This document shows positions 27,617 through 29,535 of a stretch of 64,000 nt of DNA, piece by piece. The notes under the pieces were generated by a model. The model was given only the letters and a program-made list of their open reading frames with translations. It did not search any database and was not told the DNA's origin. This DNA comes from Allorhizobium sonneratiae (GTDB lineage: Bacteria; Pseudomonadota; Alphaproteobacteria; Rhizobiales; Rhizobiaceae): contig NZ_JAMKOJ010000003.1 of NCBI RefSeq assembly GCF_023700755.1, positions 248,001-312,000 of the forward strand. The letters are read 5' to 3'. The translations under genes and the position numbers were made by a program. Every line of letters starts with the position of its first letter. Position 1 is the stretch's first letter.

Positions 27617-27999
27617 TGGATCCGTAGCCTTCAACGCGGATGCATGATGGTTTCGCTTTTTTCATGAGCCGGTTCATATGTGCGGGCCGTTGATCTGAAC
27701 GAAACTTACAGCGCCGTGCGTTTTGTAAAACGCACAAAGGATGCTGTAGCAGTTTGAATTTTCAGCATAATTTTCTCCTTAAACCGATTCCGGTTTAAGG
27801 AATTGTGCAGTAGCCTCCGATGGAGGCATGTGCAGAATTGTACTTGCCTTAAATCAAATTCTGAATGGATAGATAAAGGTTAAGAGTGAATACTTATTCA
27901 TAAAATATTAGAAATATATATTATAAATAGTAATTTAGAAACTTTAAAGGATTTTTTTTTAGGGTGCGCTTAAAATTTTATGTTTGGGGTGTTTTGGAA
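27617..27999. other. gmk-chemoreceptor gap
   Basis: This 383-base gap has a full RIME-like element (27707-27810) followed by about 150 bases of strongly AT-rich sequence upstream of the chemoreceptor, which probably holds its promoter. No ORF is supported. Confidence 0.5.
27707..27810 (+). repeat. RIME-like bipartite element, copy C
   Basis: First palindrome TACAGCGCCGTGCG...GCTGTA at 27707-27748, second CAGCATAATT...AATTGTGCAG at 27763-27810. The first arm pair is partly decayed compared with copy B. Confidence 0.75.
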
Positions 28000-29439
28000 A
28001 TGGGCGCTATTGAAGAAGAAATACAGCCATGGACCGGTGAAAAGCGGAAAATTGGCGAAGAATTATATGGATTACTTCAGAAATACGTTCGAGATATCGG
28101 CACAAAATGTCTGTTGTCTTTCAACCCGGACATGAAAATCGTGCCGGAGCAGATCCTGAAAAGCGAAGAAATCAAGTTTCGGATGCTTTGCGAAGGAAAC
28201 TTCAGCCAAACATACTTCGATGCACAGGGCAAGGTCATCCGTGATATCAACAGCAGTATCGGTCTCAACCGGTTCGTTGTTGAAGCCTGCTCGATTTATG
28301 CCGCAGAATGGACGCTGGCGCTCCTCAAGGAAACCCGCTGGAGTGGTGCCAAGCGCGAAACTTATCTTCGCAGCCTGATGCAGAGTCTCTATACGGATGT
28401 TGCTGTAGCGCTTCATCATATTCTCAGCGACATGTCGATGGAGGCGGAACAACAGCGGCAGGACTTCGACCGTCGCCGTGCTGCCGATAGTGAGGCCGAT
28501 AGCCGCGCCATGGCCATTCTGGGCCAGGCACTAAGCAATCTTGCCAGTGGTCAGCTTGGTATTCGCATTACCGAGGCGTTTCCGGAGAAAGCTGAATCTG
28601 CCCGCCGCGATTTCAACCAGGCAGCCGATGCCTTGCAGCAGGCGATGCTGAAAATTGCCCAAACGGCGGACGATATCCATCATGGCATGGACGAGATTTC
28701 CTCTTCGACCGGAGATCTGTCCCGCCGTACCGAGCAGCAGGCGTCTTCGTTGGAAGAGACGGCGGCGGCTCTCGATGAAATTACCGAAACGGTGCGGCGC
28801 ACCGCAGACGGCGCGGTTCAAGCTACAAAAGCGGCATCAGGTGCACGCCAGGAAGCAACGCGCTCTGGCGAAATCATGAAAGAAGCGCAGGCAGCGATGG
28901 CGGAAATTGCTGACAGCTCCAGCAAGATTACCCAAATCGTCTCGGTTATTGATGAGATTGCCTTCCAGACCAATCTTCTGGCGCTGAATGCCGGTGTTGA
29001 GGCCGCGCGTGCCGGCGATGCAGGCAAGGGCTTTGCCGTCGTCGCATCCGAAGTCCGGGCGCTGGCGCAACGCTCTGCCGAGGCAGCCAAGGAAATCCGC
29101 AGCCTGATCGCCACCAGTTCCGAACAGGTGCAGCGTGGTGTCAATCTGGTGGAAAATACCGGCCAGACCCTGAGTGCCATCGTCGGCAAGGTTGCGGAAA
29201 TGGACAGGCTGATCAGCGAGATCTCGACCTCGGCCAAGGAACAGGCCAACGGTCTGAAAGAGATCAACAGCGCGATCAACCAGATGGATCAGGTGACCCA
29301 GCAGAACGCAGCCATGGTCGAGGAATCGACGGCGGCTGTGGCCGAAATGAACAACCGCACCCAGGAACTGTCGCGGTTGATCCAGCGCTTCTCGCTGAGC
29401 GGTCAGGGCTTCGCTGCACCTATGCGCTATGCGGCCTGA
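28000..29439 (+). CDS. Cytoplasmic methyl-accepting chemotaxis protein with globin-like sensor domain
   Basis: A 479-residue chemoreceptor with no membrane helix, so probably cytoplasmic. Residues about 15-150 resemble the globin-coupled sensor fold ([14 protein letters not shown], then SIGLN...[12 protein letters not shown]). Where HemAT-type sensors have the proximal heme His before RIGL, this protein has Asn84 (RDINSSIGL), so heme binding is doubtful. A HAMP-like linker follows, then the signalling coiled coil with [21 protein letters not shown] at the hairpin tip. No CheR-binding pentapeptide ends it. The ATG at 28000 is chosen; a GTG at 27964 is in frame. No other chemotaxis genes lie in the window. 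Confidence 0.85.
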
Positions 29440-29475
29440 TGATCTGGAACAATCCGGATCGGTAGAGGAAAACTG

Positions 29476-29514
29476 AGAGCATCGTGCCGATTCTGATTTT
29501 CGGCACGATGCTCT
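29476..29514. terminator. Long hairpin between convergent chemoreceptor and rsmA genes
   Basis: Perfect 15-bp arms AGAGCATCGTGCCGA and TCGGCACGATGCTCT with a 9-base loop. It lies between two convergent gene ends and could serve both, though no long T-run flanks it. Confidence 0.5.
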
Positions 29515-29535
29515 AAAGTGTGATGAAAAATCGTC

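Follow-up and report, generated by a model that had tools for sequence, protein, structure and literature searches.

The receptor gene and its parts

The window, by which we mean the whole 64,000-nucleotide stretch of Allorhizobium sonneratiae DNA that was analysed, carries a chemoreceptor gene between gmk and ksgA, in a junction that spans 27617-29535. The features at this locus are:

27706-27813, no strand assigned: dispersed repeat in the intergenic DNA upstream of the receptor; 41 or more sites genome-wide (scored: 40 of 155 first-look candidates)
28000-29439, plus strand: chemoreceptor gene, 479 residues (open reading frame; highest 19-residue hydropathy mean 1.18)
28000-28434, plus strand: predicted diverged protoglobin domain without the proximal histidine, residues 1-145 (profile comparison with controls; model of residues 1-148 and its fold matches)
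28165-28179, plus strand: E56..K59-F60, in the place of Q..HW of His-type domains (conservation in 26 family and 35 His-type domains)
28249-28251, plus strand: codon of Asn84, at or one residue past the proximal histidine place (alignments)
28435-28827, plus strand: predicted helical linker (AlphaFold2 model; no Pfam HAMP match)
28828-29298, plus strand: MCP signalling domain PF00015 (Pfam, 185 bits, E 1.2e-54, cut-off 34.6)
29469-29515, no strand assigned: palindromic repeat, also dispersed, downstream of the receptor; 25 or more sites genome-wide (scored: 40 of 61 candidates)

The start codon, ATG at 28000, was set by aligning relatives; an in-frame GTG lies upstream at 27964. Hydropathy gives no membrane segment, so the receptor is predicted to be soluble. 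The MCP signalling domain is the only domain of the protein that passes its Pfam cut-off, and the linker is, as judged by eye, presumably HAMP-like.

A family was assembled around this receptor from 30 sequences (29 loci and the window), which became 22 after removal of copies identical over the compared stretch and, with the addition of L095, L096, L098 and L101, 26 family domains. Five profile-search matches were excluded as members: L015, L021, L099 and L100, which have the histidine, and L014, which lacks it and belongs to another lineage. The comparison set of 35 His-type domains includes L081, which has the proximal histidine and was counted there rather than in the set with Gln or Glu at that position.

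The sensor domain

The initial annotation called the sensor domain globin-type. No Pfam globin model matches the window protein at E <= 1, PF11563 Protoglobin included, and no NCBIfam globin model does so at E <= 0.1 (all the best stretches start at residue 148 or later). Because neither collection recognises a globin, and relatives are annotated merely as 'methyl-accepting chemotaxis protein' in the five annotated plasmid records examined, the globin identity had to be tested. Searches of PDB sequences found no globin with the window protein (phmmer), and with a 20-member family profile (hmmsearch) they gave two weak unrelated matches and no globin.

Comparison of profiles does show a relationship. 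With hhalign, the 26-domain family profile aligns to the 35 His-type sensor domains with a probability of 96.8%, E 2.3e-10 and a score of 68, against 23.5 for the best of 40 column shuffles and 15.7 for the reversed alignment. The family profile, used as a search query, picked out the His-type sensors L099 (E 1.7e-9) and L100 (E 1.0e-8). Protoglobin (PF11563) is weakly matched at E <= 1 by 11 of the 20 members scanned, the best at 2e-5 and the window protein not among them; one family member scores 21 bits against this model, below the cut-off of 25.

An AlphaFold2 model built from the window sequence and 11 relatives has a mean pLDDT of 86.9 and predicts helices at residues 13-41, 50-65, 70-86, 89-111 and 116-176. 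Foldseek returned nothing at E <= 0.001 with this model; its first 25 matches, from E 0.0013 to 0.21, are the globin domains of globin-coupled sensors and one Thermosynechococcus entry listed only as a globin domain. VIA-align superposes the model on the AfGcHK globin (5ohe_A) with Z 15.1 over 139 residues at 2.8 A, and on HemAT (1or4_B) with Z 14.4 over 137 residues at an rmsd of 3.0. As helical bundles without kinship can score a Z of about 13 with this program, we gave the sequence evidence equal weight to the fold matches. Together, the profile comparison, the weak Protoglobin matches of the members and the modelled fold bear out the earlier assignment, and we regard the sensor domain of the window protein as a diverged protoglobin. 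That the domain is no globin, and its resemblance to the IGL of HemAT-like sensors accidental, is barely credible: the empty Pfam, PDB and Foldseek (E <= 0.001) searches would favour it, and the profile score far above its controls, the matches to L099 and L100, and the sensor globins at the head of the Foldseek matches all argue against it.

Loss of the proximal histidine

The same annotation held that the heme-binding histidine appears to be missing and that Asn84, the first residue of NSSIGL in the window protein, occupies its position; a heme-free sensor, it argued, would have to respond to a signal other than oxygen or act by way of partner receptors. The absence stands: histidine is found at position 83 or 84 in none of the 26 distinct members. 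The position is less secure. With the whole family, hhalign places N84 on the proximal histidine in three of four settings and residue 83 in the fourth; with the close subfamily all four settings choose N84, and with the distant subfamily all four choose residue 83 (two of the four settings produced identical output). A joint MAFFT alignment favours I83. Most hhalign settings thus agree with Asn84 and MAFFT and the distant subfamily do not, so that the register in these alignments is uncertain by one residue, with no histidine either way.

All 26 members carry Ile or Val at position 83; position 84 is Ala in 15, Ser in seven, Asn in three and Arg in one. Asparagine is not conserved, and we rejected the idea that Asn84 is special in itself. 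A shifted histidine as a substitute ligand was likewise rejected, positions 76-94 holding histidine only at 77 (in L098) and 86 (in L101). The commonest shared histidine column of the family is position 29 (16/26), where the window protein has Tyr. The family has the N-terminal protoglobin-type fold of HemAT-type sensors and lacks their proximal (F8) histidine.

Further residues that the His-type domains keep unchanged are replaced as well. The Q, H and W of the Q..HW motif are each invariant in the 35 His-type domains; their family counterpart is E..KF, with Glu56 in every member, Lys59 in 24 and Phe60 in 25 of the 26. The Pro that follows IGL is retained in just six members, and the B10 Tyr in 19, with Leu in the window protein. 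Six residues are invariant in the family: W11, G19, E56, G66, F73 and R119. From this pattern of conservation, the sensor site looks as though it has been rebuilt and is not decaying.

Of eight sequence pairs, three yielded a Nei-Gojobori dN/dS for the globin part, with values of 0.052, 0.117 and 0.080, the last of these near saturation (dS 1.6); the remaining five pairs gave no value because their synonymous sites are saturated. The MCP part of the same three pairs has closely similar values (0.046, 0.081 and 0.064). The globin domain is under purifying selection.

Two cysteines, Cys37 (28108-28110) and Cys64 (28189-28191), co-occur in 11 of the 26 members, all of them in the subfamily of the window protein.

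Distribution and phylogeny

A protein search matched eight of 297 Rhizobiaceae genomes and the family-profile search 11 of 394. In the genus group seven of 36 genomes matched, or six without the His-type L021; the same-genus genomes G107 and G702 hold family domains identical to L037 (Allorhizobium undicola) and L028 (Allorhizobium terrae), which suggests that the genus group is Allorhizobium. The order sample gave three matches among 397 genomes, namely the window, L014 (the His-less sensor of another lineage) and the His-type L015. The class sample gave four among 385: the window, two His-type sensors and the member L098, whose globin domain is joined to a different type of MCP. Six plasmid records carry the family, three from Rhizobium and one each from Agrobacterium, Aminobacter and Azospirillum. 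Searching the window genome with the sensor domain returned only the window protein itself, and a single-protein scan of genome contigs found no relative. By these searches the family is sparse and patchy, and is found in alphaproteobacteria, mostly Rhizobiaceae.

A quick tree of 70 domains groups all 26 members into one clade (SH-aLRT 100). Nine sensors with Glu (five), Gln (two), Cys or Arg at the histidine position form a separate clade (99), which sits among the His-type sensors. The stem of the family is long and treekit flagged a possible long-branch join with L015, so the exact attachment point of the family is unsure. We rejected a common event with the sensors bearing Glu or Gln at F8, as the clades are separate in this tree. 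Aligned by hhalign to the Gln/Glu set, the family profile reaches a probability of only 54.6%, against 96.8% for the His-type set, and its two subfamilies reach 1.1% and 8.2%; three of the 24 hhalign runs lacked a usable alignment. A paper describing Glu at F8 in 21 rhizobial sensors cautions that an alignment artefact may be involved (PMC4648194). The nine sensors of our tree align without gaps across the motif.

The window genome has three globin MCPs, the His-type L001, the Gln-type L002 and the window protein. L002 (L134:1763-3505), which has Gln at the proximal histidine position, is followed by a response regulator (cheY), cheA, cheW, cheR and cheB, a che operon. icpA is reported to head the che1 operon of Rhizobium leguminosarum (PMC7617929), and from the matching place we infer that L002 is probably IcpA-like. 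Together the tree and the alignments show two apparently separate lineages of His-less globin receptors, both represented in the window genome.

L014, from another family of the order, is a 441-residue MCP whose globin-like domain reads LISMGVSP where His-type domains read HxxIGLEP; judged by this motif it is possibly a third His-less lineage.

Genomic context

At 21 other gmk loci of the genus the family gene is found at none, within the stretches compared: ksgA is directly next to gmk in five, another reading frame lies between them in three, and ksgA is beyond the compared stretch in 13. In these three (L105, L106 and L107) the frame in the gmk-ksgA junction is methyltransferase-like by eye. 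The smpB-ada-sensor locus of the window genome (L136) has no family gene, and the window gene is 80 kb distant from it.

Elsewhere, smpB lies upstream of the family gene in L027-L030. A His-type globin MCP gene lies about 0.3-1.8 kb from it in L028-L030, three of the 11 named loci, and none was seen in L027. A LysR gene is found downstream in L031, L034, L035 and L037, and catabolic genes are nearby in L024 and L025. The idea of a conserved gene partner was rejected: neighbours vary by locus and none is consistent enough to name the ligand. Five of 17 loci (L024, L025, L031, L035 and L037), which represent two conserved neighbourhoods, are flanked by zinc alcohol dehydrogenase genes, and these fall into two kinds with about 33% identity; there is none in the window between 18001 and 40000. 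We treat these neighbours as a weak lead to the ligand.

The two repeats that flank the window gene differ from each other, and the downstream one contains a perfect 15-nt inverted repeat at 29476-29514. Both may be RIME-like. As dispersed elements they are a possible vehicle for the gene's move. Phage DNA was considered and rejected, megablast giving no phage match.

Discussion

We favour the view, with rather more confidence than doubt, that the window protein is a soluble chemoreceptor whose protoglobin-fold sensor has lost the usual mode of heme binding, and is instead heme-free and responsive to a ligand that is not a gas. The sensor domain would carry no heme, and the reshaped space between its helices would bind the ligand, for which a small organic metabolite, say a short-chain alcohol or other amphipathic compound, is the most plausible candidate. 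This ligand class is suggested by HemAT, the globin domain of which binds ethanol in STD-NMR experiments while its heme spectrum is reported unchanged (PMC7542364). On binding, the dimer's helices would move, and the signal would travel by way of helix H and then the linker as far as the MCP tip, where it would change CheA activity, a route modelled on how HemAT is thought to signal. On the output side, the MCP domain is intact and the genome supplies CheA together with a che operon.

In Atu1027 both aerotaxis and chemotaxis depend on the predicted heme ligand His100, and H100A abolishes function (PMC10851874), so a receptor that has naturally lost this histidine would hardly be expected to work as an O2 sensor of the same sort. 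Against the heme-free reading stand the B10 Tyr of 19 members and the cysteine pair of 11, which could serve as ligands there. A fuller history, in which a heme-globin O2 sensor became a heme-free receptor for small organic ligands, its site rebuilt with Glu56, Lys59, Phe60 and a small residue or Ile/Val in the place of the heme ligand, is a tentative proposal, to which we give somewhat less than even weight.

The main rival is a receptor that depends on a partner. Here the globin domain would be a ligandless, structural dimerisation module, and mixed arrays with a heme-bearing globin receptor would tune the response to O2. The neighbouring His-type genes of L028-L030 fit this idea, as does a survey of 121 genomes in which Protoglobin sensors occur in all five known family holders and in 53 of the 116 others (Fisher p 0.023, a value that ignores kinship among the genomes). 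In the window genome, however, the family and His-type genes are 80 kb apart, and six invariant residues seem more than a scaffold needs. We consider this explanation unlikely, though it is the best of the alternatives.

Less probable again is that the domain retains heme, held by a different residue (Cys64 or Cys37, for example) or loosely, with no proximal ligand. The retained fold, the B10 Tyr and the cysteine pair could be read in this way, but the family has no shared histidine column, 15 of the 26 members lack the cysteines, and the heme-side motif has been replaced. That the domain holds a bilin or another chromophore, as in photoglobins and phycobiliproteins, is highly improbable. ApcE (4xxi), a globin that binds bilin, does appear in the list of fold matches, but its Z of 11.1 is below those of the sensor globins. 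The reported attachment motifs CXQD and CXRD (PMC10151467) are both absent from the domains of the 26 members, on which ground photoglobin identity was rejected, and the window protein has no B12-domain match.

Of the characterised systems, HemAT of Bacillus subtilis and Atu1027 of Agrobacterium tumefaciens share with the window protein an N-terminal globin fold, solubility and a C-terminal MCP output. The family differs from them in lacking the proximal histidine and in its replacement of Q..HW. For Atu1027 itself, direct heme binding is described as not yet shown (PMC13401364). The rhizobial Glu-F8 sensors, including the IcpA-like group, are likewise globin-type MCPs of the same bacteria without a proximal histidine. 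They form a separate clade, however, and retain the IGL-x-P-RW stretch; the one tested matches Pfam Protoglobin strongly, at 117 bits, whereas the window protein does not.

Heme-free signalling by globin folds has precedents. The output domain of RsbR-type sensors is STAS, which is not among the Pfam matches over cut-off in the window protein. Like the window family, RsbR-type sensors have a globin fold without a heme-ligating histidine, and pXO2-61 and pXO1-118 (3pmc and 3pmd) are among the Foldseek matches of our model. RsbR, pXO1-118/pXO2-61 and MabR are reported as non-heme globin-fold sensors in signalling (PMC11617747); the window protein differs from them in its output domain, and its model is nearer to the heme-bearing sensor globins. 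Photoglobins, as far as their description goes, are also non-heme globins of prokaryotic signalling, but are marked by the CXQD motif and fusion to a B12 domain, which were not found in the family and the window protein respectively.

Heme-free globin sensors, rhizobial Glu-F8 sensors and the heme-independent binding of ethanol by HemAT are thus already known. What we add is a real and coherent family of chemoreceptors with a globin fold and no proximal histidine, for which we found no report in the open-licence PMC literature. If the heme-free reading is true, these would be, as far as literature searches indicate, the first globin chemoreceptors to work wholly without heme. Globin-coupled sensors are described as heme-containing (PMC13401364). 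Here the fold and the chemotaxis output persist in a clade without the heme ligand and with a different motif in its surroundings; such a clade offers a natural test of heme-less globin sensing, and one that bears on the report that the binding of ethanol by HemAT leaves the heme uninvolved (PMC7542364).
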